DNA from: Antedon mediterranea
Taxonomy: Eukaryota > Echinodermata > Crinoidea > Comatulida > Antedonidae
Assembly: GCF_964355755.1 (NCBI RefSeq)
Contig: NC_092676.1
Coordinates: 28,502,288-28,566,287, forward strand
Reading direction: 5' to 3'
DNA: 64,000 nucleotides
The position numbers were made by a program, and so were the translations under genes. Shown here in pieces: positions 13,207 to 62,627 of the stretch (positions are counted from its first letter, which is position 1; the number at the start of each line of letters is the position of its first letter). The notes below the pieces were generated by a model that did not search any database, was not told where the DNA came from, and saw nothing but the letters and a program-made list of their open reading frames with translations.

Positions 13207-13748
13207 TTTGGGGAAAATCTACACAAAAAATAATAAAACTTCTAAACTAAAACTTCTCAACACGTTGACATTACACACATGGCTGACTTACAGCCTTGTA
13301 GATACAGACGTGTATTTGAACAACCACCACCAAAAGACGACTGGTGATTGTGGTTATAATTATCAATCGTTTTTTGTTAATAATTTAAACGTAAAAAGGT
13401 ATTTTTGGTTAATTAGCATTAAATGCTATTCATTTACATATATTTTGGAATTATACTTTACCAAAACATGTAATATAATGCTGTTTTTTATATATTTTGC
13501 GCTAACAGTAAAATATTTAAAGGCCAGTCAAGGCCAAAGGTTATTTAAAATACAATCATTCAACCAATGAAAACAAACCTGAGCAATCACGATTAACCAA
13601 TCAGGCAACGTACTCCTCTGGAAACCGCCGGTTTCAAAACAAGTGCTCTGCATAATGATCTTGGTTGCCTGCGAGAGAGTGAGGCTGTGAAGGAAGTTTG
13701 TTTTAAAATTATATTATTTCTATATTTTAGTTTAAAAACTACAACATA
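13207..13748. promoter_or_regulatory. Shared head-to-head promoter of PINX1 and PLK1
   Basis: The interval between the two start codons must hold both 5' UTRs and promoters. CCAAT boxes lie at 13564-13568 and 13597-13601, 33 bp apart. A CHR-like TTTGAA lies on the minus strand at 13633-13638, a further 36 bp on, beside a near-palindrome GAAACCGCCGGTTTC (13621-13635). In vertebrates, NF-Y boxes at about 31-33 bp spacing next to a CHR mark G2/M genes such as PLK1. Transcription starts are not known. Confidence 0.6.
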
Positions 13749-18757
<5,009 letters not shown>

Positions 18758-30018: not shown

Positions 30019-31704
30019 TCATTTGTATATCTCATCACCCCACTGAAAATATTTGTGATGGATAGGAGCAAGGTAACAGTAGGGGTAGGAGCCTCGTTGA
30101 CCCTTAGCCATACGAACTGTCACCCAGCCAGCTTCCACGTTTGACATTTGAATTGCAATCTGAATCAAAAAGAAAGTTTTACTACTTTATTAAAATAATC
30201 AATATCTACGAAATAGGACCAATAATGAGTCGCTGAGTGGTTGGGCAGGGGGGCGGCACACTGTAGCCATACAATCGGCACATGTTCAAGGCTTCCTTCA
30301 ACCAAGTCTAAAATTGCACTTTAAACTGGAGGTCTACTGTACATATCTGGTTTATCTTCTTTTTAATAGTGAAGGCTGGTACAACGTAACAGTACTTTTG
30401 AATGCATCTGTACCAGTGTAAGGTATTTGAAGCAAATGTACATTATTCTAATATGCCTCAATGAATATTAATGCTCTTAGGATCTGTATCTCTTTCTAGT
30501 TTGTGCTTAAGTGCTACTGTACACCTACCTGATCACGTCGTAAGTTTAAGCCATCTGGTCTTTCAAGATTTCCTTTGTGAGATCTCGTCACCCTCAGAGC
30601 TCGTTCCCAGCGCTGGATGGGCTCGACACAGAATGCTGGGAAAAATCCAACTTTATTATCCAATTCACCCTGATAACAATAATATTTAAAAAAAATGTTA
30701 TTATCTGTAATAGTTATGTAGCAAAACACAGTTTTTATTGCAAGTTTGGTGGTGTACCAGTATGAATGCTACAGTAGGCTACTGATCTAGAAACAATATA
30801 CTGAGTATTTGGTACAATTACGGCAGAATTGGGTATAACTAACTCCTTATTTGCTAATCTTTCTGCAATAGTACGCAAGTGTGTCTATGGTTTTAGAATA
30901 AGAGTTTTGAATAGTGAAAATGATCTTGTTAGGTTCACTACAAACTATCTGTTACATTAATTTTCTGTTTTGTATTGTTTGTTGTATATAATTATGGAAT
31001 TTTTATTCTGAAATAAAGTGATCAATCAATCATAAATGTCAATATTGCAGTACCTTCCACCATTCTGAACTTGAAGAGTCCAATAAATACACCTTATCTC
31101 CAGCCCTGAAAATAATAATAATAATAATATAAACATGAAAATATTAAACCAGTGTTTATATAAATGTATAATTGTTAATGTAATCAAACTGGTTCGTAAA
31201 ATAGAAAAAAAAAAGTCCTTTGCTTGTTTGATTGTTATTTATTTGGTGTTGTAAGACGATTAAAACTTTTTTTTTTATCTGTGACTATTTTAATTGCTAT
31301 ATTATTTATTCACTCATAAGCCAGAATTGGCTAGTCTTACGTTGTAAACAAGAACGTGATTAAATAAATAAATACAAATACAACACAAGACAAAAGAACA
31401 TCGACAAAGTCCACGATTACAAACATTTCTTAATTTTGGATTTAAATAAAGATAAACAATTAAAGAATTAAGGCAAAAATAATGGGGAAAAGAGATTGTT
31501 TATAATATTATTATATTATTAAGGATGCTTTCTAACCACATGGAAACACAATTTAGCCTAACAAGTAATCAAATCACATGATGAAAAGGTCAAGTACATC
31601 GGAGTTAAAACTTACGAGAATGTCAGGTCCTCGGGAACCGATCCTTCAAAGTTATACAAAGCAATACATTCTGTTGCTAACGGCTGATTTGAAGACATTA
31701 TATC
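30019..31704 (-). other. SH3 exons of the STAC-like gene
   Basis: Exon 31704-31616 starts the SH3 (ECIALYNFEGSVPEDLTF, the ALYDF motif as ALYNF), 31105-31054 gives AGDKVYLLDSSSSEWWK with the WW of the peptide groove, and 30669-30529 gives VGFFPAFCVEPI (the FPxxY position is FPAFC) and then VTRSHKGNL. The last exon, IAIQMSNVEAGWVTVR ... GSYPYCYLAPI, ends the second SH3-like region as in STAC. A short extra tail follows (HHKYFQWGDEIYK). Confidence 0.85.
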
Positions 31705-34700
31705 CTATAAATAAATAAAGAAATAAAGCAATACATTCTGTTGCTAACGGCTGATTTGAAGACATTATATCCTATGAATAAAGTAATGAAACATACAGAA
31801 ATTAAATAGAGAAATTACAAGTATTGTAGTAGTAGCAACAGATATTATAGGCTCAACATTTCTCTCAATTTAAAGGTATCAATCTAAAGCCTTGTCTACA
31901 CTATCAAACCTGAAAATGTGATTTGATGTATGGACATGATGATGTGATATCACTACCATATTTGGTCATATCACTACCATATTTGCAAACATCACATTTT
32001 TTTTTCAAACTAGTTTCATATTGTAGACAGAGCTTTAAAGCACTATAACATTGTATTAGGCGCTATATAAGACTACCATTACTATTATTATTTATATATA
32101 TTTTACCTTGGAAGACGCATTAAGGGAATTACTTGGTGACCTGCTAAGTGTCCTGTTTGACCCGTACCCATCGTAGCGACTTGCCGACAGGCTTGTACTT
32201 GCCCCTTGTTCTCCCTAGACAAAAACAACAATAATCAAATGGATCAAAACAATGCTATAGTATACTGGATCAATAACGCAGATGGTAACAATTGGTTTGA
32301 AAGAAATAAATTAATTTAATATAGTATACTTTTATTATACATAATTGTTATTTGTTTATGCTACAATTATTTTATGCTTATTATTTCAAAATAATATTGT
32401 ATATTTTTTAATATTATATTTAGGTTGTTAAAAATAAAATAGAAACAGTAAACTAAAATAATTGATTGTGATTCTAAATTTGTTTAGTTAAATAGAGTTT
32501 TACAAATTCAAATTATTCTCAGTGTGTGAGTTTAATTTATTATATTATTACCGTATATTTATATTAAATTTGAATGGAGTTCATAGACAAATATAATCTA
32601 TAATCAACGGCTCACTTAAATCATTTTTTATCGGCTAACTAGAACTGATTGACTTTCTAATGGTCATATAAAATTCCAGGAGCCACCAATGGACAGTTGA
32701 CCAATGTGATGTTTGAAGCCGTGTGTTACATGAAAGCTTAGTTCCCACGTGAATCCAAAGATGTAGTCGCAACCCGAGTGAGTTGGCCAATGACAAGTGA
32801 CAGTTTGATTGATCCATTGCATTCTGATTGGTCAAATCACTTACCAAGTAGAAACTAAGCTTAAAATAGTAGACTTTTATAATGCAAACTGATGTATTCA
32901 TCACATTGGAGAAATTAGTTAAATTCACCAACAGTTTGATTGAGATGGTCAGTTTGATTGAGATGGTCAGTTTGATTGAGATGGTCAGTTTGATTGAGAT
33001 GGTCAGTTAATTTTACAGCCATTATGACCACTACACCAGAAATAAACTAAATAATGTTCTCCAGTGAAAAGTACAATTATTTCCAATGAGTAGAAACTTA
33101 AATATACATAAGCCTATCAAATTACATTTTAGTGTATTGGCTGAAGTTTCTATGTAATATATAAACGTCTGTAAAGTGACAGGTAAAAGTGTTTTATTTG
33201 TTCACCGACAGATGTGCAAGATCTTTAAATGTCAAACGCTGAAATTAGATCTTTATTTTGTTGATTGGTATAGTTTCCTTAACCCCTATGATGCTACATA
33301 CTAAACATAAACAAGTCATTGTATTATACAGCTAAATGCTTCATGTCAAGACAGAAATGTTTAAAATATCCTATTTATTTTGCCTACAGAGAAAGCTACA
33401 GAGATGGTTAGTTTTATCTTCATCTTCTCAGACTCCTGCTTCTGTTTTGTTTTACCATATTTAAATGTATTGTAATTTTCAAAGACTAACTAAATAAAGA
33501 ATTATTAAATGAATGTATTTTAAAATGAGAGCGAATAAAGCACATAGTTTAAAGCCTGAAATGTTATTACATCATATTTTAAAGCTGCAGTAGCACACAA
33601 ATACAATTAATAATTCTAGAATTGCAAAATAAATAAAAAATGATACTCATAGTTGGGAAGCAGAGTACAATTAAAAAGTAAATCCTTAATAAAAATTACA
33701 TACAACATTGTAATTTTGGTTTATATTTTGTTTAAAAATTTTTATTTTTTATCAAATTTTACACTAATTTGTAAGAGATGTCGTGAAGCGTAACAAATCC
33801 CTATTGGAGCAGGATTATCAATTGTGACACAAAATGTCTAAAATCGGAAAGATAATCTGTAAATAAGCCAAATAAATATATATACCTTAGGGTCACGGGA
33901 CAAAACAACGTGACCAATAGGAGAACCTCTAAACATATACGCTTCGGAATCATCAGCTTGATCAATTTCCGATTGTTGTCTACGAGGCTACAGAGACAAC
34001 AAGAATACATGCAAAGAATGAAACAAGAGCGCAAGAAGCAAGATAATACAGAATTAAAGATTATTGGAAACAATGCAGATACTATGGCAATATAACATAT
34101 ACAGTACTTGACTCATGGAGGTATTCTATTTTTACACCTCCATGCTTGACTTAAGCTCTGTCTACACTATCAAACTTTATGTGACAAAAAATGTGATGTG
34201 ACCATATATGGACATGATGATGTCATATCACTACAATATTTTAGGTATATCACTACAGTACCATATTTAGGTATATCACTACCATGCAGTATTTGTACAC
34301 ATCACACATTTTTTGTCAAACGTCTAGTTTGATAGTGTAGACAGAGCTTTAGTTTAAGGACATGGGGCTGATGCAATGTTTGTATTGTGTCTAAAACTCT
34401 GTCTACACTATCAAACTTTATGTGAAAACAAAATGTGATGTGCCCATATATGGACATGATGATGTCAATCACCATATTTGGGCACATGACACTTGTTTTG
34501 CAAAACTAGTTTGATAGTGTAGACAGAGCTTAAGAATTAAAACATGCATCTGAAAGTTGGGCTAAATTTATATAATGAATATAAAATAATAATTATACTA
34601 GATGTTAATTATAACACCTTTTAGAGAGAGATTTATTTTTGATATTAGCATAGTATGGCTATGTTGGATCATATCAGAACTGGGGTCATTCCGTCAAATA

Positions 34701-37700
34701 CAGTATTAAAGATAAGCACAAGATCTATCATACAAACATTATTGACAAAGCTAAAATATTGCAAAATATAATTTCATGCACATATTATGAATAATAATTC
34801 ATTAAAAATAAAACTCCAAAGATGTATTTGCGTCATATACAAGGCTACACAAACATCATTAGCACGAGTACATTTATCATGCAACATTGAATGATTTCAA
34901 AAATACATAATCCTCCGCACTCACTCTGTAACCATAGCAACCGCCTCCTCTTGCCGTAGCCTCTGAAAACAGAAACAAGTATTATAATATTTCATGTGTA
35001 TTTTGTAACAAATTATGCTATAATCAAAAGGAAATTGAAGGTGATTTATCAAATAATGTATCTAGAAAATTGTTTTAGCTTCGCAAACAGCTGCTCTGTT
35101 TCATTTTGAGTGATCATTGAGCAGACGCAACTTGGAATACAATATACACATTCAATTCATTGCTTAAAAGGTGGAATAAATTCTAAGAAAAAAAACTATC
35201 TGACAATTAAAGGTGAGAAACCTATCTATTATAAACAATTACTGCAATTAGTTTGCGAGAGTTTAAGTTGATACAAACAAAAAAAGAATCAAAGAAATTT
35301 AAAGCTGTTATAAAAAACTATGAATAATAAAGATGAATAAAATCTAACTTTGAATAGGCTATTTTGTAAATATTATTACTTTGTCCAACAAAAATTAACA
35401 AAAATAATGATTTGTATATGAAAAAAAATTAAATAAATAGGTAAATGTAACTAGGAACTCATTGACTTCTGTTCAACTAATTTTTCTTTAAAATTAATTT
35501 TTTTTCTGACCCAATTTTTGGTCAACATAAATAACTATTATGTATAAATGGCTGATTTGAAAATAATTTATAAGTACTCACGAGGTTCAGCATCCAATGA
35601 CATACTTTTCCCGTAATTTTTCAACATCTTGCGTCGAGAAGAGGCCGGACTATCAACATTAGGAGAAACAAAATAAAAGTCAGACTCACCTTTGTTATAC
35701 GTTTTCCATCTTTTAAATGTAACTGGTCTAAAAACCAGGGTTGATAATTATATTAGTTTATTAAATGATACAATATTAAGAATTAATATATTAAAAATTG
35801 TAAATAGAATGTTAGAATGAGAGGTCAGAGGTCATGCAAAGAATGAAGGGAAGGTGTTGAAAACAGAAGATGGATAAAGTTGCAAACAGATAAGTTCAAG
35901 ATAAAGGAAAGAAGTTTTTACAGATGGTTCCCAAGTTCCATGAGCAATTTAAGTGGAAGATAAAAGAAAGAAAAGATGGTTTTCTCATTAGAATAGGATC
36001 AACTGTAATGCTGAAAAGATGAATATTTATCAATGTAATAGTTTTTATTAAAAATAATTAAAAGTGTTGATGGTTTTGATCAATTTATGATAATTAAAGA
36101 TGACAATCTTTATTATGATAGTGTAGAAGGCGTCCTTTGAAACTCTTCTATACATACAGTTATGCGGTGTGACATCACAACGATAGATGGCACTGCGTGA
36201 TTGCTACGCAACCAAAAATGCATTCAACGCTACTATGCTGATAAACTATAGATATCTGTATTTCTATCAAATTATGTATCTTAGCTTGACTTTTTTAAAC
36301 TTAAACTGTAGTTGAAGAATAAATAGATTATTAAAATCAAATATTTAGTGATCTTTTGAAATTTTATTTTGTTTTTATTGAAAATGATTAAGTTTTAAAA
36401 TGATTACTTCAATAAGCCTATTCCAAACATTGGTGACCTTGGAGTCACTCGGGCAGGTTGCAAGTTTTCTAGCTACGAAACAGCGCCATCTACAGTTGTG
36501 ACGTCAGCACTGCAGAACTCTATACACCTCTATTTACACAGACGAGCGGTAAGGGTAAGCGGAGAACCGCGTAGCCTGTCCCACATAGAATCTGTATCTA
36601 TCCTGAGTATAAACTACTCATGCACTCAACATTTTGTGTAAATGGTCCTAAGAAATAACATAGATTCTATATTTCACCATTATTAGTTGGGTCCCCGGCA
36701 GGGGGGCCACTTTAAGGGGACACTTAGTTGGGTCCCAGGGGGCCACTTTAAGGGGACACTTAGTTGGGTCCCAGGGGGGCCACTTTAAGGGGACACTTAG
36801 TTGGGTCCCAGGGGGGCCACTTTAAGGGGGGACACTTAGTTGGGTCCCAGGGGGCCACTTTAAGGGGACACTTAGTTGGGTCCCAGGGGGGCCACTTTAA
36901 GGGGACACTTAGTTGGGTCCCAGGGGGGCCACTTTAAGGGGGACACTTAGTTGGGTCCCAGGGGGTCCACTTTAAGGGGACACTTAGTTGGGTCCCAGGG
37001 GTCCACTTTAAGGGGACACTTAGTTGGGTCCCAGGGGGGCACTTTAAGGGGACACTTAGTTGGGTCCCAGGGGGGCCACTTTAAGGGGAAACTTAGTTGG
37101 GTCCCAGGGGGGAGGGGCACTTTAAGGGGACACTTAGTTGGGTCTTTAAGGGGACACTTAGTTGGGTCCCAGGGGGCCCACTTTAAGGGGGACACTTAGT
37201 TGGGTCCCAGGGGGGGCCACTTTAAGGGGGACACTTAGTTGGGTCCCAGGGGGGCCACTTTAATAGAGGTTCTACTGTATGTATATATATATATTATGTT
37301 TTTTTTTCTTTGATATGAACATATGTTCACCAACACACAACACTCCTGTACTTTTGCTGTGATAACATCAGGGACATATCAAATATATTCCTCACTCAAT
37401 CAACCCAACAACCTTAAGTGTTTGCTTTTAACATTTACCATACTTTAATCACAATCTAATTAATGCATATACAAGTGTACACAATTATAGTGTAATCAAA
37501 ACCTATATGTAGGCTATAGTTTAAATATTTTGGTTAATCATCAACTTGTATAACAGCGGTGATAGAAAGCCTGGAAAAATATGTATGAAAAATATGCTGA
37601 GACAAAACTGTGCTGAATTCTTGCTAGGCCAGTGCATGTGATGGGTAAATGTACTTTTAGCAGCCAAAGACATACAGCACTATAAATAGAACATTATGTT

Positions 37701-40700
37701 GAAGAACCTTCAACAAAATTACTATAATGACATTATCACATTTGTATATATTCTTAATTGAGATAATCAATATATTTGGATTTACATTTTCTGTAAAATT
37801 AGTTGAATATAATTGATTAAACAAATTGTATTTGTATTTAAAAAACTTTAAATTGTTTAAAATATGTATTTTAGTATATGAATCATGGAAAGGCAAATTA
37901 CTGAAAATTGACAATGCTGTGGGTATCAGTGGCTGGATCTCAATTGAGTTACAAAATATAATAAGCATTGAAAATGACAATGCTGTGGGTATCACTGGCT
38001 CTCAATGGAGATACAAAATAAAATAAGCAAAAAGCTAAATCAAAACGATAAAGTAAAGCAGCCCGAAAAATTAGCAGAGCTTTCAGGCAACACTAGCTCT
38101 TCATCGGTGCAAGTACAGCTTGTAGTATGTACTTGTATTATATGTATACAATTGCATATGTATTGTATAAAATAAACAGTAATGATTTACGATAGATACA
38201 AACTGTTTACAGTACAATATTTATTTTCAAACATTTAATTGTAATGGTATCACTTAAAATCTCCATTATATAATATGATAGCCAACGGAATATACATGTT
38301 TCTAAATCTATTTAATTGTTTAAAATGTATTTGTGTATTTGTGCTATTATTACTGATAAAATGATTTTGATGACTGTATTATGTTGAGCGCTGATGTCAT
38401 TGGTAATATTTCACATATAGAACACTAAATTGTTACTTTTCACATATAATTTATCTATGAAAAAATAGCAAAAAATAAATAACAAAATACAGAATATAGC
38501 TTAGGTTTACAGCAAGCTGTTTTTTTTTATAAATAAAGGTAATTTTCAAGCTTATTCTTGTTTATTTAGCTGTTCTCGATTGAAAACTTCTGGCCGTCAT
38601 TGACTGAAGTTAACATATGCATTGTGGTTAATTTAATAAAAAGATAACACAATATATTACCTATGAGGAGCCGACTTAGGAGTTGCGCCGGTACTGGAGC
38701 GTCCAGGACTTAACGAGTCACGGCTACTGCTATCAGTGACTGTAGAGTAGTCAATGAGTTCACCAGGTGAGCTTGTAGTATGCCGATGGTTAGGACTGGT
38801 CGGGCTGGGTGACGATTTACGACGGCTACTACCGCTACTAAATGTATCTGATGGATGGTTACGTACGGACATCCGCGAGGCGGACTTTATGGCTTCATAC
38901 ACAGGATCAATTTCTAGACAAATAAACGAAAAACTAATTTAAATATAACTATTCTATGTTTCCTAAAAAGTATCACCTACAGACAATGGGGTGACGGACA
39001 GGGCACTCAGTGAGTGAGTGGCCGAGTGGTTAAGACAGTGGAACCGTAATCACGTAGCCATAACATCGGCAGGGGTTCGAGGCTCACTCACTCCATGGTT
39101 CTGGTGGTAGAACGAGTCTTCTCGGATAAGGACTATAAACCGTAGGTCCAGTGTGCACAACTTGCTCGTGTGCACTTTAAAGAACCTAGTACATCTTTCG
39201 AGATGAGTAGGGGGTTACCCCGGTGTATTAGTACATCACAGCCACTGATCACCAACTGGGCCCTCTGGGAGATCAGTCTTTGACTGAAGAGGTTACCCAG
39301 TATAAAGATAAAACAAACAAGGCCCCTGGTTTAGCAGTACTAAGGACCCTCCAGTGGGGCGACGGACAGGGCAAAGGCCCCTGGTTTAGCAGTACTAAGG
39401 ACCCTCCAGTGGGGTGACGGACAGGGCAAAGGCCCCTGGTTTAGCACTACTAAGGGCCCTCCAGTGGGGCGACGGACAGGGCAAAGGCCCCTGGTTTAGC
39501 ACTACTAAGGGCCCTCCAAAGCTGGGCAGTTGCATTAGGCTGCTAATGCTCTGGGGCTCATTGAGCTCTGGGGTCTCTGGGTTTAGCCATTGAGCAACTA
39601 TACCATATTAAACATAACAGCAAAGATGGAACACATTAAAGAGATAAATGCAGAAGAATGTTTTTACCAATACGTGGTGTTTCATCCCGTGGTCCTTCTA
39701 CTTCTGATGAACTTTTCTGTCTTCTCAACAGTTTTCGTTTTTCAGACTAAAGAACAACAAGATTTATTTAATTTCATTTCAGTGTCAGATGCTCATTGTT
39801 TGTTCTGTGCACAAATAAGTTTAGGAACAATTTAAAAAATTGTAGAAAAATTGAGATTTAGACACAAGAATTTACTTTGCTGCTTGCAGACTGTTCCATG
39901 GCTGTAGAGTATACAGAAATAAGAATGCCAAATATTATCAAAGAAAGTACATATTGAAATACAGTAGAAATTTGTTTTCGAACACCCTTATTAAGGGAAC
40001 ACCCTTATTAAGGGAACACCCTTATTAAGGGAACACCCTTATTAAGGGAACACCCTTATTAAGGGAACACCCTTATTAAGGGAACACCCTTATTAAGGGA
40101 ACACCCTTATTAAGGGAACACCCTTATTAAGGGAACACCCTTATTAAGGGAACACCCTTATTAAGGGAACACCCTTATTAAGGGAACACCTTTTCCATGA
40201 CGAAACGATTGAGAGGGACAATTTTATATGCTTTAGGACTACAGTCAACACTTATTCAGGGGACACCTTCATTAAAGGGACAATTTGTCTTGTCACCACT
40301 TAATTGAGTTCTAATGTAAATACAACTGACTAGTGACCCCTCTCATGATCTGGGTTCACCTCAGTGTAGCTACAGTACTCATTCCATTATAATAAACCTG
40401 AAAATCTTCCTAAACCTAACGGCAACGATAGAACACAATAATCTGCGCTTTATAGTCCCACGCATTCTGTGTATGACTTGGTTGCAACGTGCCTTATCTA
40501 AAGCTTGTAATGATGCTGCGTGAGACCACATGCTATTACAGGCTTTAAAGGACATCATTTCTTCTACAAAAGCCAATTAAATTTGAAGGCGTTATAGAAG
40601 CACACATACATTTCTTATATTTTAAATGTGTGATTAGTGAGTAGTATGTATGCAGTCGAGTGCATACCTTTCAAAGAAATGAAAATATTAACATTTTTTT

Positions 40701-49700: not shown

Positions 49701-52700
49701 TAATTTTTATTGTTTTTGTTGATCATTTCATCATTTGATTTGAATATTATTTTTATCAAAGACAGCTTAAATGATTATCCTATAGTTCTTATAACGAAAT
49801 TTTTCTAATTTATTTTGTTTTATGCAAGAAAAATTCATGCTTATATATTTATCATCGATCATTATCATCCTAGTGTAAATGGGCCTTTAAGGTGAGAAGA
49901 GGTCATCAAATATTAAGCATCTGTTTTTGGTCACAAAAGATATTACCCTTTCTATACAATATCATTTATATTAATTTTTAGTAATCACTAATAAATAATA
50001 ACTCGAATTTTAAAATCATTTCCAGCATATTGACCTTTTAAATTCAGTTTATTGTAAATGTCAGTGCATAATAATACAATATTTGAAATTAAATATTAAG
50101 GCACACAATTACTGTAATGATTATATTTAAAGGTCAGCAGTGAGTAAATGTCACAGCATACATGTTTATTATGACAACAAACACATTTTAAAATAATATC
50201 AACTGACGACGTTTGTATTTAAAGCTCTGTCTACACTATCAAACTAGTTTGACAAACAAAGTGTGATGTGCTATGACATCATCATGTCCATATATGGGCA
50301 CATCACATTTTTTTGTCACATAAAGTTTGATAGTGTAGACAGAGCTTTATAATGTACACACTTTAAGCTCTGTCTACACTATCAAACTAGTTTTAAAAAG
50401 TATGACCAAATATGGCAGTGATATACCCAAATATGGTAGTGATATGACATCATCATGTCCATATATGGGTACATCACATACTTTTTTGTCACATCAAGTT
50501 TGATAGTGTGACCTTTAGATACCCATGTTTCCCAGGGTAGGCTGAGAAGGCAGGAAAGATAAATTAAGTAGAAAAGGATAGGAAATAAGTGGAAGAAAAA
50601 TGAAGAAATAGAGAGCGAAGGAATACAAAGTAAATGAGAAAGATATAAAAAAGTAAAAATAGAAGGAATGGATGGCCAAACAAAACCTAAATATAAAGGT
50701 CTCTATAAAGCCATATTGTTACAGAAGATTACTGTAAATATTACATTATAAATGAAGGAGACTAAGCTGCCATGACGATGATAGGATTTAAAATCAAGAG
50801 ATGATACAATCTACTGTTATTATAATAAAGTACAACCACTCCTTTGCCCTCCCCCCACCCTATTTGTAATAAATGAGGGGCCAATCCATATTAAAGAGAC
50901 ACTCTGTTGGGTTGCCCTCCCCCCACCCTATTTGTAATAAAATGAGGGGCCAATCCATATTAAAGGGACACTCTGTTGGGTCCTGAAGGGCCAATCCATA
51001 TTAAAGGGACACTCTGTTGGGTCCTGAAGGGCCAATCCATATTAAAGGGACACTCTGTTGGGTCCTGAAGGGCCAATCCATATTAAAGGGACACTCTGTT
51101 GGGTCCTGAAGGACCAATCCATATTAAAGGGACACTCTGTTGGGTCCTGAAGGACCAATCCATATTAAAGAGACACTCTGTTGGGTCCTGAAGGGCCAAT
51201 CCATATTAAAGGGACACTCTGTTGGGTCCTGAAGGATGGTGTCCTCTAAATACATGTTCTACTGTATAAATTGTCTTGGCACATCTAAAGCTCTGTTTAC
51301 ACTATCAAACTTTATGTGACAAAAAATGTGATATGCCCATATATGGACATAATGTCATATCACTACAATATTTGGGAATATCACTACAATATTTAGGCAC
51401 ATCACACTTTTTGTCAAACTAGTTTGATAGTGTAGACAGAGCATTAAATGCACTACTGTACCATACCTCTTTTATTAAATCACCTTGCGTTTCTTGCAAA
51501 CTCTGTTCTGTGGATGGATGGTGGATTAATTTACCTTGCGAAAAATCCTGAAAGCAAGAGAAGAATTATGACATTTTAATCACTAAAAAACACAATAGAA
51601 AGAGACCTTGAAACATAGGATGCAAGATTACGATGTATATATCATTATATATGTATGTATACTGGTATAAAGATTGATTGAGAATAAATGAATATAATTA
51701 AAGAAAAAAAACAAGAAAAATTAAGATTAATAAAATCAGACTTTAAATACGCCATTTTGCAATTTTAATAAAATTATTCACTTCTGGAAAAAATACAACA
51801 AAAATAATCCGATTCAGTTTTTGGTCAAAGTGAATGGCATATTAAAAAAAAAATATATTTTTTAGGGGGGACAATAGTACATCTATAATCAATAAAATAG
51901 ATAATGATGATGATATTGATGATGATATTGATGATGATATTGACAATGATGATGATTTTGATTACAATCAATGGTGATGAAGATAGCAATAAATATGATG
52001 ATGACAAATTTGGTGATAACAACAACAATAACACTATGATGAAAATATAGTGCTGTGGATGATAGTACCAGGATGAATCTGAATTTTAAGACTATTAGGA
52101 AAAAATAATTTTTATTTACTTATAAAAAAAACAGATACATTTAATGTATGTATACTGCGCTTTGCCATACACAAGCAGACATTGTCATTTATACAAATGG
52201 TTCTATATGATTTAAATACAATGTATCTAGTACTTTAGGAATACCAGAAAAAAAACCAATAGTTGTATTACTTACACCTGTTACACTGGCCTCAGGTTTG
52301 GTAAACATATACTGGGCTATCTTAGGTTTATTGGCGGGGAACTGCATGTCCCCTATGTTCTCTTTGGCATCAACCGCTCTTGTTAAAGTTACTATAGCGT
52401 CCATTCTTCTTCCTTGATCACATAACTGTCAATAGGAAATATATAATTTGAAATAAACTATCAAATATTAATATAATCGACTCCTTTATTTAGCAAGTGA
52501 ACTATCAGTTAATTGGTACAATTCAGCCAATTTATGTCACGTGACAAACAAACATGTTTAATTGCAACGCAGAATGTATTAAATAAATAATGATAAAGTA
52601 TAGTAATATTTAAGCAAATATAATACTTTATTTGTTTAAATGTAACATTTTGTCAAAATTGGGGTGAATAGGCTCGGTTTTACGAAAGGTATATTCGTAC

Positions 52701-55700: not shown

Positions 55701-58700
55701 TTTATACTGTCTTTGAACAAACAAATGAAATGATGTCATGATCAATAAAGTCCAATTTACAGACGAGTGGTAATAATAATATAGAATATATGCATTCCTT
55801 ATACACACACCGCGGACGGGCAGTTTCCGCTTAAGATAGATACAAGATTCTATGTGGGATAAACTATGTGGTTTTACGCTTACCGTTACCATTCGTCTGT
55901 GTAAATTGGCCTTAAGAAAAATAAAATTCATACGCTTCATTTTCATCAGGCCTACTACTTAAACACTACAACAATTGTAATTATTAATGTTACTTGTCTG
56001 TCATCATGCAATATATAAACAAATTAATTTCTTTAAAATATTATTCTGATATTATTATTTTATTCAATGTTGAACATGGAGGATGAACTTAATAGACCAC
56101 AAACATAAAGACAATTTCAAATTGCCATTTTAAGAAATTCATTTTGAATTCATTGACTAACAAACCTCATGGGATTTCTGCATTTACTTGAGAGACTTAT
56201 TATAGAATTTATAAACCAACCAACATGGTTGAAAATGAATATCATGTTCATATTACAAAGAAAGTCATTTTCAAAACTTTAATTTTAAAAAACCAATTAT
56301 AGTTATAGAAGATGGTAGATATTTGTTGCTATAATTTACTTGTCTATTGTATGACCCACTAGTCTATACGATCCCCGGGAGAGGTGCGTCATGGATGCGT
56401 CATTTAGAAACAAATAATTATTGATGCAGAGGTGCGTCCAGAAACCCAGATGTTATGTCACATCAATGAACAATGGTGTGTCAATGTCCGCCATTTTACC
56501 ACCTACCATATCATGAACAACATGATCATAGTGCATCAAAATGGGTGTGCCGTGGTCATCTAAAGGTAAGTCATATTTTTTAGGCACAGGTGCGTCATGG
56601 TATTCATAAGGTATGACGCACATCGGACAAATGACGCACCTCTCATAGGGGTCATATTGTGGGTCATAGAATTGACAAGTTGAGCCCAGAATAGTTTATC
56701 CTGTACTTGATGCTTATCATGCTCTGCCTTCAATGACAATATTAGAACTATTTACTCCTACGTTCCCTATATCCACTATTTACTGCCTGCTCCTACGTGC
56801 CCTATATCAATTACTTACTGCCTGCTCCTACGTGCCCTATATTAACTCGCAACCTATTTACTCCTATGTGCCCTATATCAACTCGCAACCTATTTACTCC
56901 TATGTGCCCTATATCAACTCGCAACCTATTTACTCCTACGTGCCCTATATCAACTATTTACTGCCTGCTCCTACGTGCCCTATATCAACTATTTACTGCC
57001 TGCTCCTACGTTCCCTATATCAACTATTTACTGCCTGCTCCTACGTTCCCTATATCAACTATTTACTGCCTGCTCCTACGTTCCCTATATCAACTATTTA
57101 CTCCTACGTTCCCTATATCAACTATTTACTGCCTGCTCCTACGTTCCCTATATCAACTATTTACTGCCTCCTCCTACGTTCCCTATATCAACTATTTACT
57201 GCCTCCTCCTACGTGCCCTATATCAACTATTTACTGCCTGCTCCTACGTTCCCTATATCAACTATTTACTGCCTGCTCCTACGTTCCCTATATCAACTAT
57301 TTACTGCCTCCTCCTACGTTCCCTATATCAACTATTTACTGCCTCCTCCTACGTGCCCTATATCAACTATTTACTGCCTCCTCCTACGTGCCCTATATCA
57401 ACTATTTACTGCCTCCTCCTACGTTCCCTATATCAACTATTTACTGCCTCCTCCTACGTGCCCTATATCAACTCGCAACCAATGGCTCATCATTTGGTTG
57501 TGCATTGCTCATTCATTCTCTCGGGTTTTATTATAGACAATTGTATCAAATAACTGCTTTTCTTTCTTCTGTCGATACAATGTAATTAGACAATTTGTAT
57601 CCAATTGTCATTTGTTATCATAGTCGTCTTTCAGGCTTTTCCAATGCACCCTACAGACACACTTGAACGCTTAATCACCATATCAGTATAGGCACATAGC
57701 ACATCTGTGATTTATATATTAACAACATACAGCAGACTACTGCAGTGACAACATGTATTGAAGCCTTTAGGGTAGGTGGTCTAATGGTATGACGTTATCA
57801 GGTTTGCAATCGTTGTAATGTTGCCCAGGATAGTTAAATAAACAATAACTGTCTGAAACCATAATTAGTTTAATTTGATATCCATTAGATGTAGCTCATG
57901 AAGAAAAAACAAACTATCTGTACAGTATGTAACAAATATAACAGACAGGTTTGGCGATATAACGGACAGGTTTGGCGATATAACGGACAGGTTTGGCGAT
58001 ATAACGGACAGGTTTGGCGATATAACGTACAGGTTTGGCGATATAACGTACAGGTTTGGCGATATAACGGACAGGTTTGGCGATATAACGGACAGGTTTG
58101 GCGATATAACGTACAAGTTTGGCGATATAACGGACAGGTTTGGCGATATAACGGACAGGTTTGGCGATATAACGGACAGGTTTGGCGATATAACGTACAG
58201 GTTTGGCGATATAACGGACAGGTTTGGCGATATAACGTACAGGTTTGGCGATATAACGGACAGGTTTGGCGATATAACGGACAGGTTTGGCTATATAACG
58301 GACAGGTTTGGCGATATAACGGACAGGTTTGGCGATATAACGGACAGGTTTGGCGATATACAGTAACGTACAGGTTTGGCGATATAACGGACAGGTTTGG
58401 CGATATAACGGACAGGTTTGGCGATATAACGTACAGGTTTGGCGATATAACGGACAGGTTTGGCGATATAACGGACAGGTTTGGAGATATAACGTACAGG
58501 TTTGGCGATATAATGGACAGGTTTGGCGATATAACGGACAGGTTTGGCGATATAACGGACAGGTTTGGCGATATAACGGACAGGTTTGGCGATATAACGG
58601 ACAGGTTTGGCGATATAACGGACAGGTTTGGCGATATAACGGACAGGTTTGGTGATAGCGAATAATTTTGGCCGTGTAGAATAGTAAATGATAGCTAAAC

Positions 58701-61700
58701 AATAGTATAGCAAAATAAATATACAAAACTATGTTTATTTATTCAAAATTCAGTTTGATTAACAATATTACTAAACAGATTATAGATTTAGTTTGAATTG
58801 ACTCTCATCGTACGTTAGAGTATTGTCATATAACACATAAAAACACAAAACAAAAACAAAATTTAAAAATGAAATTTTCCCTGAATTATAACGTGTTTCA
58901 AAAGAAAGTATTAAGTAACGTCGTAAAATGGCTTCACTCCAGATAAATAAGAAAATAAAATAAAAAATGTAACATACCCTCGTTTGAATAATCTTGGCGT
59001 GCTTGATAATGGCATGTGCTGTGGAATCTACTACACTGGCTTGAATATTCTGCAAGTCCTGTCAAATACAAAACCATACACAATATAATACCCACTTACG
59101 TATATTCTGTCCGATAACACAAATCTACATTGTCAAAATAATTACATTAATAATCCGACTTGAGTCAAATCTTTTAGTTACGACAACGAGGACAAATTTA
59201 AGATGATTCGTCAGCTGAAGCAAGTTGCATAAATCTCACCGAAGAGTACATAATCATGTATGGTATTAAAGAGTAACCAAAAATGACATTACAGTTTAAT
59301 ATCAAATACGAAAAATAATGAATTTACAAAATATCTCTACAAGAAATTGCAATAGTTTTCCATCCACATCAATGATTTTATCTGATATTATGAGAATTTA
59401 GTTACCAAATGAAAACAACCAATAAAATACGACACTGTATATGGAGTGTACAATACAGCTAATAATGATAATACATAATAAAATCGACATGGTATAAATA
59501 ATCGCTCCATATTGAGAAAAATAATGGTTGAAGGTTGGTATTAAAATTTGTAATTGTTGTTTGGTAAAAACGAACAATTGATTATGATATAAACAACAAG
59601 AGGGACGGCTTTTGTTATACAAAATAAAAATATTTACAAAATATTTACAAAATAAAAATATTTACAGAATATATAGATAGGAATATTGGAAGTAGAGTTG
59701 AAATTAATTTTAATTATTAACAAACATATTATTTGATTTTATTTAATTAAAATAATATTTTTCTTTATTATCATACAGGTATACATTTTTAAATAACAAT
59801 TTATTTCATTTACTGTTTTAATAATCAAAATAAACAAAAAGAGGCTTTTAACTTTTTGTTTAAGTAGAGTAGAGCTCTGTTTACACTATCAAACTTAATG
59901 TGACAAAAAAAGTGATGTGTATATGGACATAATGATGTCATAGCACTACCATATTTAAGCTGTTATGCGCGATTTGAACGATTTGCGCAATTTGAAATTG
60001 CGCAAAAAAAATCAATTTGAATTGAAACATGTGTTTCAAATTGCGCAAGCAACGTATTAAATTGCGCAAGTAATCTGCAAACTGCGCAAGGTTTTTCGAC
60101 AGATTTTGAAATCATGCACACCCATATTTATATAGTAATTTCTAAGAATGATTCAAAATTAAAGATAAATATTGCATTTCCTTATTTTAGTAGTGCAAAT
60201 ATTGTTATAAGTTAGCATACCGTCGAAGAACCCACGAAGGAAAACGAAGCGGTGGTGTTCCACCAGGCGGGCGCGGCGCGGGCGGCCGGCTATACTACTC
60301 TAGCCTAGCTAGGGTCTGGACTACTGATACTGACTAGGTTACATGGCCTAGCTTAAACTAATATTAAAAACTTAATTTTTACATTTATTTTGATTTATTT
60401 CAAGTTACAGTGATAATATTATTTAATTGTCATAATAAATGTTATGTATTTATTATACACATGTTATCTTCGCATTTATTATGTTTTATTTTGAGTTATT
60501 TAGTTTCCAATAAATTATTATAATACCGATTGTCTGGTAGAATTTTGTTGCGCAATTTGAAAATTTACAGTTCGTTTTCAAATTGCGCAAAGGTGTCATA
60601 TTGCGCAAGAACTATCTTGCGCAATTTACAAATTGTGCAGCGCAATTTAAAATTGCGCAAAGTTGATTGCGCAATTTGAAATTGCGCAAAAAAATCCTTG
60701 CGCAATTTTAAATTGCGCAAGAATTCTTTGCGCAATTTTAAATTGCGCTGCACCATACTTGAGCCCATCACACTTTTTTAAGTCAAACTAGTTTGATAGT
60801 GTAGACAGACCTTTATAGGTAAATCTATAAATTAAAAAAAATAATATACTCAGTAATCTCAAGATCTTGCAGCCACAGTTTTTAAATTGAATTGATATTT
60901 TGGGTCATCTTGAATGGGAAAAAAAGGTATTATAAGCCTATACTCATGTCAGTAAAAAAATAAATAATAAAACTTACCTGAACTATATGAGGTAATGCTA
61001 AGTCCTGTAGACTACTGTTGTACTCGTTGACGAGTGAAAGTTGTAAGACGTACGAATTATGTTTCTTATAACAGTCAAATAAGAATGGGTTCTGCTAGGA
61101 GAAGAAAATATGTATTAATGTGCAGTCTAAGTGCATTTATGAACTATGACAAGTACAAGGTGATAAATGGCATTATACTCAGGTATGTGGTAAAGTACAG
61201 TATAAAGTTATAGACTAATTAGCATGCAGGTGGATACTTGTAGTTAAGCAACCCCTACAATATTCATCCAGGTGAGCATATAGAATGCCAACAGCTCTTA
61301 CATTTTTTTGAAATTTTATAAATTAAAAATTTGCTTTGAATTTGTAATTTAAGGATTTTGTTCCAATGAAAAATTATCTTTTTTATGATTCACTGTCTTC
61401 TTCTGTTGTTTTCGACTTCTCATTAAAATTATTACTCTTGTGTCTCTCCTGCCATTATTAATAAAGGAGTGTTTACTTAAAGAGGTCTAATCACATTTTC
61501 ATATTTATTTTATGATTATTGCCCATAATCTACTTATTTATTTGTCAACGTTTTGAAAGGGTTGACAATAATGTACAATCTAAAGCATTCCGAGGACCGT
61601 GCTTAAGATTCCAACAATTCATCGTAATGTGTCGGTGTCGTTAATTCCTCTGCGACCGTGTGTACACTAGCCTCATTGGAAGCACTAAATGATTCACGTA

Positions 61701-62627
61701 TGTGCTTTAAGTTTGCTTACGTGAGCAAACAGAGGTTAAAACCAATGGCAGGTGCTCTGACCGACAACACACATATTTACATGCCAGCGTGTACGTCAAT
61801 CGCTACATCTTATGTAATAGTTATAAATTAATAATATGTTTATATATCGTGGCACTTGTGCATTTTATGATTTATTAAAGAGAATGTAATATAGGTTTTG
61901 AGTTGAAGGTCTTATATACTAGAGTGTTTGGTAAAAATAATGACACATAGGTTTCCTATCAAATGCAGAGTACCCATGATTGAAGGTCTTGTATACTAGA
62001 GTGTTTGGTAAAAATAATGACACATAGGTTTCCTATCAAATACAGAGTACCCATGATTGAAGGTCTTACAGTAGAGTGTTTGGTATTAAAAATAATGACA
62101 CATAGATTTCCTATCATAATACAGAGTACCTATGATTTAGGACAGTTTGAAGTATTATTTTTATTATTTGAAAAAGATTAATGTCTCCAATAGCCATGTT
62201 AAGTGATGAATAATAACATTGGCAGGCATGGGTTTAAATCCCTACCACATACCATTCTAAAGAGGTGGAAAAAAGTTGCCAATAATACTTAATAATAATC
62301 AGGAGTGAAAATGAGAAGATTCTGCACATCTGCATCGTACACAAAACACTAAAGTACAACAGAATAACTATAGATAATATCATTTAAGTTTTTTCTTTTT
62401 TAAGACTGTTTAGGCATTTTGAATTATTGTAAACTCTTAATTATTTTATACCAGTTAAATAAAAAAATTAATAAATACCATAAATAAAAAAATATACTTT
62501 TATTTATTGTAATTATTTGGTTTATATTAAAATTTATTTAATTATTTATCAAATGTTAATTCTTCACCTTAGTAGAACCTTGAGATTTTGTCATTCTCGT
62601 CCACGTTTCTGCATAATTTCTTTGACT
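30019..62627 (-). CDS. STAC: F-BAR, C1 and SH3 domain protein, STAC-like (5' partial)
   Basis: Twenty phase-consistent exons: 62627-62568, 61094-60978, 59058-58978, 52425-52276, 51547-51467, 49663-49593, 46344-46227, 44059-43453, 43126-43032, 42387-42304, 39746-39668, 38913-38661, 35727-35582, 34962-34925, 33987-33886, 32214-32107, 31704-31616, 31105-31054, 30669-30529, 30159-30019; about 870 residues. The first exons (YKKHNSYVLQLSLVNEY) look like the C-terminal half of an F-BAR domain; then a coiled coil (IDDLENELSELNDKLNKQKR), a long charged region, a C1 zinc finger, a Ser-rich linker, an SH3 domain and a second SH3-like region. From C1 onward it resembles STAC1-3, which bind CaV1 channels in muscle and neurons; DPVYEAIKSA, VGFFPAF and LRVTRSHKGN are the closest points. 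Vertebrate STACs lack F-BAR. That one transcript joins all exons is inferred. The N-terminus is off the right edge. Confidence 0.8.
30225..30345. mobile_element. Degenerate tRNA-derived SINE
   Basis: Box-A-like TCGCTGAGTGG (30230-30240) and box-B-like TGTTCAAGGCT (30283-30293) with TGTAGCCATACAATCGGCA between, resembling the better SINE at 39010-39318 on the same strand. Confidence 0.45.
31658..31776. repeat. 67-bp duplication spanning a splice acceptor of the STAC-like gene
   Basis: The block GCAATACATTCTGTTGCTAA ... ATATCCTATAAATAAA occurs at 31661 and again at 31728, almost identical. It copies the 5' part of the SH3 exon together with its acceptor. Confidence 0.9.
31882..32038. mobile_element. 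MITE-A copy 10, STAC-like intron
   Basis: Ends TAAAGCCTTGTCTACACTAT and TTGTAGACAGAGCTTTA; two CCATATTTGG-type boxes. Confidence 0.85.
32932..33007. repeat. Tandem repeat, 18-bp unit
   Basis: Four exact units of CAGTTTGATTGAGATGGT. Confidence 0.92.
34151..34352. mobile_element. MITE-A copy 11, STAC-like intron
   Basis: Both ends present; CCATATATGG at 34202-34211; three ATATCACTAC-type internal repeats lengthen it to about 200 bp. Confidence 0.9.
34391..34533. mobile_element. MITE-A copy 12, STAC-like intron
   Basis: Both ends present; CCATATATGG at 34444-34453. Only 38 bp from copy 11, same orientation. Confidence 0.9.
36125..36540. mobile_element. Possible inverted-repeat element, about 415 bp
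   Basis: GTGACATCACAACGATAGATGGC (left, 36169-36191) resembles the reverse complement of the right part near 36490-36515 (GCGCCATCTACAGTTGTGAC). The arms are only moderately similar. Confidence 0.45.
36535..36655. repeat. Interspersed repeat, copy 1 of 2
   Basis: ATTTACACAGACGAGCGGTA ... CCCACATAGAATCTGTATCT matches, in reverse orientation, 55805-55915. Confidence 0.65.
36685..37266. repeat. Minisatellite, about 37-bp unit, G-rich
   Basis: About 16 units of ACTTAGTTGGGTCCCAGGGG + GGCCACTTTAAGGGGAC, with slippage in the G runs. It ends TTTAATAGAGGTTCTACTGTA, an end of the CTATTAAGG element family. Confidence 0.92.
38984..39520. repeat. 55-bp tandem repeat interrupted by a SINE
   Basis: Units of AAGGCCCCTGGTTTAGCAGT ... 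GGGGCGACGGACAGGGCA run 39319-39520 (about 3.6 units). A left half-unit ATGGGGTGACGGACAGGGCA sits at 38985-39004, on the other side of the SINE. Confidence 0.85.
39010..39318 (+). mobile_element. tRNA-derived SINE
   Basis: A perfect box A TGGCCGAGTGG (39019-39029) and a box B GGTTCGAGGCT (39074-39084), 55 bp apart, suit a Leu/Ser-type tRNA head. A body follows (GCACTTTAAAGAACCTAGTA, GAGTAGGGGGTTACCCCGGT) and an A-rich ATAAAGATAAAACAAACAA tail. The tRNA head does not fold into a canonical tRNA gene and is not called as one. Confidence 0.85.
39961..40319. repeat. 17-bp minisatellite inside a CTATTAAGG-family element
   Basis: About 12-13 exact units of AACACCCTTATTAAGGG (39980-40191). The array is bracketed by ACAGTAGAAATTTG on the left and TTAATTGAGTTCTAATGTA on the right, which look like decayed ends of the element. 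Confidence 0.85.
41874..41993. repeat. Short direct repeats, about 38 bp
   Basis: AATGAATTTGGTAGTCAGTA occurs three times and a fourth partial copy is present. Confidence 0.8.
43032..44059 (-). other. C1 (cysteine-rich) domain exons of the STAC-like gene
   Basis: Exons 44059-43453 and 43126-43032 join in phase 1 within the domain. Spacing is H-x12-C-x2-C-x13-C-x2-C-x4-H-x2-C-x6-C (HIFQDYNFKKPTFCDQC ... GLRCKLC ... IHHKC ... PAC), so all zinc ligands are present. Upstream in the same exon is a long, highly charged K/E/D/R-rich stretch of about 150 residues with no recognised fold. Confidence 0.85.
44149..44322. mobile_element. MITE-A copy 13, STAC-like intron
   Basis: Left end ACTCTATCTACTATCAAACT, right end AAGTTTGATAGTGTT. 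Four perfect CC(A/T)6GG boxes at 44197, 44218, 44239 and 44273; the first three are spaced exactly 21 bp. Confidence 0.88.
44663..44885. mobile_element. MITE-B copy, right end lost
   Basis: Starts TTAAAGATGTATTGTCCC and shares the internal TTTTTGGTCAAAGCGAATAA with the copies at 48927 and 51715. The right inverted repeat is not seen. Confidence 0.6.
46602..46769. mobile_element. MITE-A copy 14, STAC-like intron
   Basis: Both ends present. Three perfect CCATATTTGG boxes at 46665, 46686 and 46707, 21 bp apart. Confidence 0.9.
47891..47932. repeat. Perfect 12-bp hairpin
   Basis: TCGTCGGGAGAA (47891-47902) and TTCTCCCGACGA (47921-47932) are exact inverted copies around an 18-base AT loop. Confidence 0.85.
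48259..48424. mobile_element. MITE-A copy 15, STAC-like intron
   Basis: Both ends present; CCATATATGG at 48363-48372; opposite orientation to copy 14. Confidence 0.9.
48927..49436. mobile_element. MITE-B copy, 510 bp
   Basis: Ends TTAAAGATGTATTGTCCC and GGGACAATACATCTTTAA are intact; longer than the 241-bp copy at 8808. Its right end shares the TTAA with the next MITE-A. Confidence 0.75.
49432..49571. mobile_element. MITE-A copy 16, STAC-like intron
   Basis: Both ends present; the CArG core is mutated to GCCATATAGACA. It ends 22 bp before the donor side of exon 49663-49593. Confidence 0.9.
50220..50349. mobile_element. MITE-A copy 17, STAC-like intron
   Basis: Both ends intact; CCATATATGG at 50288-50297. 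Confidence 0.92.
50362..50518. mobile_element. MITE-A copy 18, STAC-like intron
   Basis: Same orientation as copy 17, 12 bp away; CCATATATGG at 50459-50468; right end decayed to TTTGATAGTGTGACCTTTAG. Confidence 0.88.
50845..51265. repeat. Minisatellite, 41-bp unit, with a 68-bp duplication at its left
   Basis: Two 68-bp units (GCCCTCCCCCCACCCTATTT ...) are followed by about seven units of GGGCCAATCCATATTAAAGG + GACACTCTGTTGGGTCCTGAA. The array ends GTGTCCTCTAAATACATGTTCTACTGTA, again an end of the CTATTAAGG family. Confidence 0.9.
51286..51447. mobile_element. MITE-A copy 19, STAC-like intron
   Basis: Both ends present; CCATATATGG at 51337-51346. It ends 20 bp from exon 51547-51467. Confidence 0.9.
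51715..51888. mobile_element. MITE-B fragment
   Basis: Right end GGGACAATAGTACATCTATAA and internal CAGTTTTTGGTCAAAGTGAA match the family; left end missing. Confidence 0.5.
51893..52030. repeat. GAT-rich microsatellite
   Basis: Imperfect GATGATATT and GATGATGAT repeats. Confidence 0.85.
52829..52954. mobile_element. MITE-A copy 20, STAC-like intron
   Basis: Ends TAAAGCTCTGTCTAC and TTTGATAGTGTAGACAGAGC; part of the left inverted repeat is deleted; CCAAATATGG present. Confidence 0.85.
54361..54562. repeat. Minisatellite, 15-bp-type unit
   Basis: Alternating GCTGTCCACACTGTGC and GCTGCCTACACTGTGC units, about 13. Confidence 0.9.
55054..55428. repeat. Minisatellite, 24-bp unit
   Basis: About 15 units of GTGATGTGACATGTGGGTGG(ATGT), with ATGAGGG, ATGTGGG and ATGTGGA variants intermixed. 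Confidence 0.92.
55805..55915. repeat. Interspersed repeat, copy 2 of 2
   Basis: Inverted relative of 36535-36655 (AGATTCTATGTGGGATAAAC, CGTCTGTGTAAATTGGCC). Confidence 0.65.
56350..56669. mobile_element. Inverted-repeat element, about 320 bp
   Basis: Left TATGACCCAC ... GAGAGGTGCGTCA and right TGACGCACCTCTCATAGGGG ... GTGGGTCATA are inverted copies. Several more GTGCGTCA motifs lie inside. Confidence 0.7.
56744..57474. repeat. Minisatellite, 35-bp unit
   Basis: About 20 units of CTCCTACGTTCCCTATATCA + ACTATTTACTGCCTG, with TTC/TGC and CTG/CTC variants and an ACTCGCAACC variant at both ends. Open in all three forward frames but not coding. Confidence 0.93.
57937..58660. repeat. Minisatellite, 21-bp unit
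   Basis: About 34 units of ACAGGTTTGGCGATATAACG(G/T). The G/T position varies along the array. A 4-base insertion CAGT near 58361 shifts the frame. Open on both strands because the unit is 21 bp with no stop. Confidence 0.94.
59872..60814. mobile_element. MITE-A copy 21, split by a nested insertion
   Basis: The left half (GAGCTCTGTTTACACTATCA ... ACTACCATATTTAAGC) ends at 59960 and the right half (CACCATACTTGAGCCCATCA ... TTTGATAGTGTAGACAGACC) resumes near 60751, so about 790 bp is inserted. Confidence 0.85.
59961..60750. mobile_element. Nested element with clustered TTGCGCAA palindromes at both ends
   Basis: Both ends carry many GCGCAATTT / AAATTGCGC blocks that form palindromes such as TTGCGCAATTTGAAATTGCG; about 6 motifs on the left and 12 or more on the right. 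The middle is AT-rich apart from a GC-rich patch at 60260-60290. No coding frame. Confidence 0.75.
61095..62567. other. STAC-like intron with a three-unit repeat
   Basis: AT-rich intron; the only clear structure is the 77-bp repeat at 61903-62134. Confidence 0.5.
61903..62134. repeat. Tandem repeat, about 77-bp unit, three copies
   Basis: TTGAAGGTCTTGTATACTAG ... GAGTACCCATGA starts at 61903, 61980 and 62055; the third copy has small indels. Confidence 0.9.

Follow-up and report, generated by a model that had tools for sequence, protein, structure and literature searches.

A STAC-type gene in the crinoid Antedon mediterranea with an F-BAR-like N-terminal part

A STAC-type gene with an F-BAR-like front was located on the minus strand of the analysed DNA, where its 22 exons run from 87821 down to 30019 on the window scale. 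The window is the whole 64,000-nucleotide stretch that was analysed (contig positions 28502288-28566287); the next 40 kb to its right was added and numbered 64001-104000, and the assembly searched comprised 354 Mb in 18 contigs. In the assembled gene model, the exon chain forms one reading frame of 930 residues with its sole stop codon at the end, and the domain order is F-BAR-like, coiled coil, charged stretch, C1, linker, SH3, SH3. Eighteen of the exons lie inside the window and four in the next 24 kb past its right end (contig positions 28569036-28590108), the latter encoding the first half of the F-BAR-like domain. We consider it highly probable that this, the only STAC gene detected, is the long invertebrate form, whose product would be dimeric, held at the membrane and able to act on CaV1 channels through a U-domain and an SH3 pair.

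An earlier sequence-only reading had placed an F-BAR-like segment and a STAC-type C1 and SH3 pair in one phase-matched chain at 30019-62627, and the collinear 22-exon model and the domain searches bear out that central claim. Both end points fell on true boundaries of the model: an exon begins at 62627, and the stop codon ends at 30019. The span was right at its stop end and too short at the other, where the gene continues past 62627 for another three or four exons; the stretch at 62627 belongs to the middle of the F-BAR-like domain and not to its start, with the first half beyond the window. The two junctions singled out by that reading, 58978/52425 and 46227/44059, are phase-0 splice pairs of adjoining model exons. 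Two exons between 52276 and 46344 (51547-51467 and 49663-49593) were missing from it, as was the U-domain core DPVYE.

Exons were drawn from open frames, an automatic exon scan, Pfam C1 matches in the genome and a tblastn search with a STAC3 fragment, and candidate splice sites were inspected. Phase served as a filter for exons 10, 16b and 17 and partly for exon 1, and the frames were in view when boundaries were set, so no probability is attached to the 21 of 21 junctions that are in phase in the gene model. Ranked against all AG sites in the 104 kb, 19 of the 21 acceptors (exons 2-22) reached at least the 90th percentile, the exceptions being exon 11 (86.6) and exon 16b (77.3). Ranked likewise against all GT sites, 20 of the 21 donors (exons 1-21) did so, the exception being exon 14 (81.5). 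Codon statistics were taken from long open frames at 10 of 12 kinase loci, at least one of these frames being a simple repeat. The resulting scores favoured exons 12, 15, 19, 20 and 21. The F-BAR exons had no support from the codon scores: exon 5 scored -2.0 (still the best of its three frames) and exon 7 scored better in another frame. Coiled-coil exon 11 scored -1.0.

Exon 1 (87821-87707, minus strand, as are all exons of the model) was placed by inspection of splice sites and rated probable; it is the least certain exon of the model and is followed by a 12.4 kb intron. An in-frame stop lies two codons upstream of its ATG, and beyond it on the same strand are exons of KRR1 (93868-93030; Pfam KH_KRR1_2nd, 1.6e-18), so the 5' end of the gene is probably near exon 1. 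Between the two, exons at about 89110-91299 on the plus strand resemble NDUFA9, with no Pfam match, and they apparently stand head-to-head with the STAC gene. Exons 2 (75296-75191), 3 (74518-74449) and 4 (66901-66749), likewise outside the window, complete the first half of the F-BAR-like domain. Exon 5 (62568-62627, SQRNYAETWTRMTKSQGSTK) has phases 0/0, was set by splice sites and frame, and joins exon 4 in phase, LLK being followed by SQRNYAET. Exon 6 (60978-61094, ending in YKKHNSYVLQLSLVNEYNSSLQDLALPHIVQ) came from the exon scan, whose start was 61091, from alignments and from the model, and it pairs with HHNRYVLGV...LLLPGLLRSLQ of FES in the alignment. Exon 7 (58978-59058, DLQNIQASVVDSTAHAIIKHAKIIQTR) carries the end of the domain and was supported by splice sites, model and alignments; the automatic scan chose another frame (LAEYSSQCSRF...), and the frame in the model was adopted for its junction phase and its similarity to F-BARs. 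Exon 8 (52276-52425; splice sites, model) holds the last of the F-BAR-like domain and the segment that follows.

The identity of this N-terminal part was the most difficult to establish. The Pfam FCH model scored 15.5 bits on the gene model, under its cut-off of 27.8, and the sub-threshold match spans residues 30-94 (exons 1-3), where an FCH belongs. A genome-wide Pfam FCH search listed eight places, none of them in the STAC gene, a comparison of the F-BAR part with PDB gave no match at E<=10, and the F-BAR pieces of the sequence-only reading, when joined, matched no Pfam family. When human FES F-BAR was itself compared with PDB at E<=1, the seven distinct sequences found were two of FES and five unrelated, with no other F-BAR; a single-sequence search is thus nearly blind for these domains. 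A profile was built from FES, FER, FCHSD2, PACSIN1, FNBP1 and NOSTRIN, the FES sequence being confirmed through the PDB search and the other five unverified. With this profile, the F-BAR-like part scored 27.1 bits (E 3.7e-6 at Z=25,000) and ranked first against 2000 shuffles and one reversed copy (1949 of the 2002 sequences reported), the best shuffle reaching 8.7 bits and the reversed copy -2.1. The BAR of AMPH scored 5.5 bits, the model's own coil 2.4, and TPM1 and vimentin were negative.

Smaller profiles gave weaker results. FES and FER together gave 16.0 bits (E 0.0083; best shuffle 11.1), and FES, FER and FCHSD2 gave 15.3 bits (E 0.014; best shuffle 9.8), with a best single stretch of 8.7 that was below at least two shuffles (9.1 and 9.3). 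In leave-one-out profiles, the F-BAR-like part obtained E-values from 5.1e-7 to 3.2e-3 and stood above AMPH BAR, TPM1 and vimentin in six of six; the left-out F-BARs themselves scored 2.1e-17 or better, which makes the part more divergent than any of the six. Local alignment scores were 79 with FES, 80 with FER and 90 with FCHSD2, and none of 300 shuffles reached the score in any of these three, as compared to 2 of 300 for PACSIN1, 7 of 300 for FNBP1 and 149 of 300 for NOSTRIN. Identity was 39 of 167 aligned residues with FCHSD2 and 39 of 159 with FES. Among the six F-BARs compared, FCHSD2, FER and FES are the nearest. The net charge of the part is 0 (29 K/R, 29 D/E), the six known F-BARs ranging from -4 to +12. 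Since Pfam FCH stayed under its cut-off, a detection limit, and the six-F-BAR profile nevertheless matched, we use the label F-BAR-like; the F-BAR assignment of the sequence-only reading stood by the one profile and fell short by the other. All 11 places in the genome that the F-BAR part matched lie inside the STAC gene. A classical BAR was also considered and set aside, since the Pfam listing for the full-length model (12 families at E<=10) contained no BAR model.

The coiled coil follows by way of exon 9 (51467-51547), which links to it and was given by the exon scan and the model. Exon 10 (49593-49663, IDDLENELSELNDKLNKQKRYCD) was selected by the phase filter as one of three listed candidates, the only one like a coiled coil, and exon 11 (46227-46344, NTRRGSNIIKRSSEYQTDIYKVRHEMRKIQMIIKTKQTQ) by splice sites and model. 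Against Pfam, the coiled-coil piece matched DUF7862 only, under its cut-off.

The STAC identity of the C1 and SH3 half is firm on comparison with known domains and structures, and the complete C1 and the SH3 pair that had been read from the letters both exceeded their Pfam cut-offs. Exon 12 (43453-44059), with the charged region and the first half of the C1, had the top exon-scan score (61.0); its C1 half gave E 0.058 in the genome search with Pfam C1. Exon 13 (43032-43126), with the second half, was found by Pfam C1_1 in both the genome search and the model. On the model, C1_1 scored 54.2 bits (cut-off 26.5, E 1.3e-14). Against PDB, the C1 had 32 matches, led by PKC chains, with the STAC3 C1 sixteenth. 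In the alignment with PKC delta C1b, P11, T12, L20, L21, G23, L24 and Q27 are kept and W22 is replaced by R; the position numbers and their role in lipid contact are those we assume for PKC delta C1b. At the positions of L20, L21, G23 and Q27, STAC3 has instead M, I, L and F (loop CARMIVLNNKFGLRC). Because it keeps the PKC delta C1b contact residues that STAC3 lacks, the C1 described here looks able to bind diacylglycerol, unlike that of STAC3. PMC8258685 describes the STAC3 C1 groove as filled by side chains at 111 and 115 (L115 in the text, K115 in a legend) and argues that lipid binding is unlikely, though unverified.

Directly after the C1, exon 14 (39668-39746; inspection, model) carries a basic/serine motif (RRQKSSSEVE). 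A possible cassette exon, 13b (42304-42387, QEHRQKFKLFRKHSSLSEVETDGEKKSW), resembles it and is not part of the 930-residue model; its splice sites are weak (68.7th and 88.2th percentile). The similarity of the basic/serine motifs in exons 13b (QKFKLFRKHSSLSEVE) and 14 (EKRKLLRRQKSSSEVE) was reached by none of 2000 shuffles, and the pair is likely to be an exon duplication. Exon 15 (38661-38913), supported by the model, encodes the U-domain core EIDPVYEAIK (residues 635-644), in frame between the C1 and the SH3 domains, together with a serine-rich linker. DPVYE is coded by 38894-38908; DNA encoding it was found once in the window and in none of 100 shuffles, and when the protein was shuffled 1000 times the alignment score of the core was attained once. 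The match to KVD PVY ETL of stac2 is partial, with D, P, V, Y and E identical, KVD replaced by EID and ETL by EAI. According to PMC6156082, a 22-residue U-domain of stac2 is enough by itself to suppress the calcium-dependent inactivation of CaV1, an effect that is abolished when KVD, PVY or ETL is changed to alanines. We regard the U-domain core as the most direct sign of a probable STAC function.

The linker continues through exon 16b (35582-35649), which is uncertain and used in the model, exon 17 (34925-34962), chosen partly by phase, and exon 18 (32107-32214; splice sites, model), which is serine-rich. An alternative to 16b with equal phases, possible exon 16a (35690-35727, PVTFKRWKTYNK), has a strong donor (12.4) and an acceptor at the 85.4th percentile and was left outside the model. 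The SH3 pair is encoded by exon 19 (31616-31704; SH3-1 start; tblastn, exon scan, model, Pfam), exon 20 (31054-31105; SH3-1 with EWW; tblastn, model, PDB alignment), exon 21 (30529-30669; SH3-1 end and SH3-2 start; tblastn, exon scan, model, PDB alignment) and exon 22 (30019-30159; SH3-2 end and stop; splice sites, model, PDB alignment). AATAAA or ATTAAA occurs at +157 and +187 past the stop. Pfam SH3_1 scored 60.9 bits on the model (cut-off 22.9, E 9e-17) in two stretches. The top 5 of 329 PDB matches to the pair were STAC3 (three), STAC1 and STAC2, with both domains covered and E-values from 2.4e-20 to 1.3e-15; GRB2 and others ranked behind the STAC structures among the best 60 of the 329. 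A W284-type tryptophan is frequent across SH3 domains in general. In the SH3-pair alignment, with positions by our own count, W284 (the first W of EWW) and F295 of STAC3 are identical, K329 is replaced by R and H311 by L. These four positions are named in PMC8258685, and STAC3 W284 is reported to bind the CaV1 II-III loop.

When the genome was searched for a second STAC locus, none was found among 45 candidates scored; matches elsewhere covered the C1 or the SH3 region, never both, and within the limits of this search STAC thus appears to be single-copy.

Several side observations concern the surrounding DNA. A 67-base tandem duplication at 31658-31791 (2.0 copies, 95% matches) overlaps the start of exon 19; it repeats the acceptor and first codons of that exon, and its upstream copy enters intron-like sequence. 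Many minisatellites, mostly intronic, occur at 29000-64000 (17 entries scoring at least 200, some overlapping), for example 21 bases x 34.1 copies at 57936-58657 and 35 bases x 20.7 copies at 56755-57473. An interspersed repeat, probably a short transposon family, was found on both strands in the right half of the window (e.g., 46622-46741, 48269-48421 and 50339-50503). The plus-strand frames 22401-22562 and about 13707-13865 are short pieces with no Pfam match that resemble TADA3 and the N-terminus of a polo-like kinase, respectively.

That the F-BAR-like exons and the STAC exons share one mRNA is inferred from the model. An F-BAR/coiled-coil gene could instead lie upstream of a short, vertebrate-like STAC on the same strand that starts near exon 12, where an in-frame ATG is present just upstream (frame from 44077, MYLLSQLELF). 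Against two such neighbours, the junction of exon 11 with exon 12 keeps the phase, with the exon 11 donor at the 99.5th and the exon 12 acceptor at the 95.9th percentile, and other invertebrates are reported in PMC7573238 to have the same domains in one protein; we regard separate genes as very improbable. The same ATG would also serve an internal start within a single gene, giving a short STAC form beside a long one from the upstream start, which is compatible with the long-form gene preferred here. Spare exons 13b and 16a of fitting phase point the same way, as does the alternative splicing of Dstac, for which 13 BAR-containing transcripts are described in PMC7573238, while the weak splice sites of 13b speak against it. 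We hold two forms to be quite possible, leaning slightly against them; only some channel complexes would then carry the F-BAR.

An ordinary coiled-coil rod in place of the F-BAR would account for the sub-threshold FCH score, the lack of a PDB match, the net charge of 0 and the low scores with the two smaller profiles. It fits poorly with the 27.1 bits on the six-F-BAR profile versus at most 8.7 in 2000 shuffles, with the scores there of AMPH BAR (5.5), the model's own coil (2.4) and TPM1 and vimentin (negative), and with FES, FER and FCHSD2 alignments that 0 of 300 shuffles equalled, and we give a rod even less credence than two separate genes. The long STAC with an F-BAR-like front remains our preferred reading. 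Its product would probably dimerise through the N-terminal F-BAR-like domain and the coiled coil, the F-BAR-like domain and the C1 with its diacylglycerol-contact residues would hold it at the plasma membrane, and the linker U-domain and SH3 pair would act on L-type (CaV1) channels, as in vertebrate STACs. The protein is most likely a dimeric membrane scaffold holding CaV1 channels.

FES and FER, which with FCHSD (nervous wreck) showed the best F-BAR similarity of the six compared, end in an SH2 domain and a kinase, and FCHSD has two SH3 domains and no C1. NOSTRIN has an F-BAR, a coiled coil and one SH3, also without a C1. The likeness to NOSTRIN drawn by the sequence-only reading was abandoned: the layout of F-BAR, coiled coil and SH3 is shared, but the F-BAR alignment is at the level of shuffles (149 of 300) and no better than chance. 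With NOSTRIN in tblastn, the F-BAR exons were unmatched, the best E (0.12) lying elsewhere. Fungal Bzz1-like proteins such as ArF-BAR have the same order of F-BAR, C1, SH3 and SH3, as described in PMC8158962, a comparison of order alone and not of sequence.

With vertebrate STAC1-3, the gene shares the C1, the U-domain core and the tandem SH3 pair. The closest published architecture is that of invertebrate Stac, likened here by its description in PMC7573238, where Dstac and its counterparts in other invertebrates combine a C1 (cysteine-rich domain) and SH3 with a putative BAR domain that is absent in vertebrates. The architecture is therefore already in print for invertebrates, and the statement of the sequence-only reading that vertebrate STACs have no F-BAR agrees with that source, in contrast to the gene described here with its F-BAR-like domain. 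A lineage-specific origin, which had been offered as one option, is unlikely given the putative BAR in Dstac and the others; loss of a BAR-type domain in vertebrates would be a simpler inference than gain in one lineage. In the same paper, Dstac supports the L-type (CaV1) channel of fly muscle as well as calcium transients and locomotion. The sequence-only reading further proposed that the long STAC could couple membrane curvature to channel traffic, which stays a conjecture; in that paper Dstac RNAi produced no obvious T-tubule defect, with only 3 of the 13 BAR-containing transcripts targeted. Parts of STAC, namely the U-domain and the SH3 pair, act on CaV1 according to PMC6156082, PMC8258685 and PMC9019556.

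The lipid-contact residues in the C1 hint at an ancestral STAC that may have been doubly linked to membranes. A wider scheme is possible but doubtful, in which the ancestral animal STAC would have been a membrane scaffold with an F-BAR and a diacylglycerol-responsive C1 and would have linked the gating of CaV1 to the shape of the membrane and to signalling through phospholipase C; the F-BAR would have been lost in vertebrates, with the C1 groove closed, and the domain order in common with fungal Bzz1-like proteins would go back to an actin/endocytosis adaptor that predates the Metazoa.

For the STAC family, another animal genome now supports the report of a BAR-type domain in a non-vertebrate STAC. 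The type, given as a putative BAR for Dstac in PMC7573238, is narrowed here to an F-BAR-like domain nearest FCHSD2, FER and FES among the six compared, and the channel-modulating U-domain core was found within the same gene. A STAC of this kind would respond to lipids if its C1 does bind diacylglycerol, in contrast to STAC3 as PMC8258685 argues.
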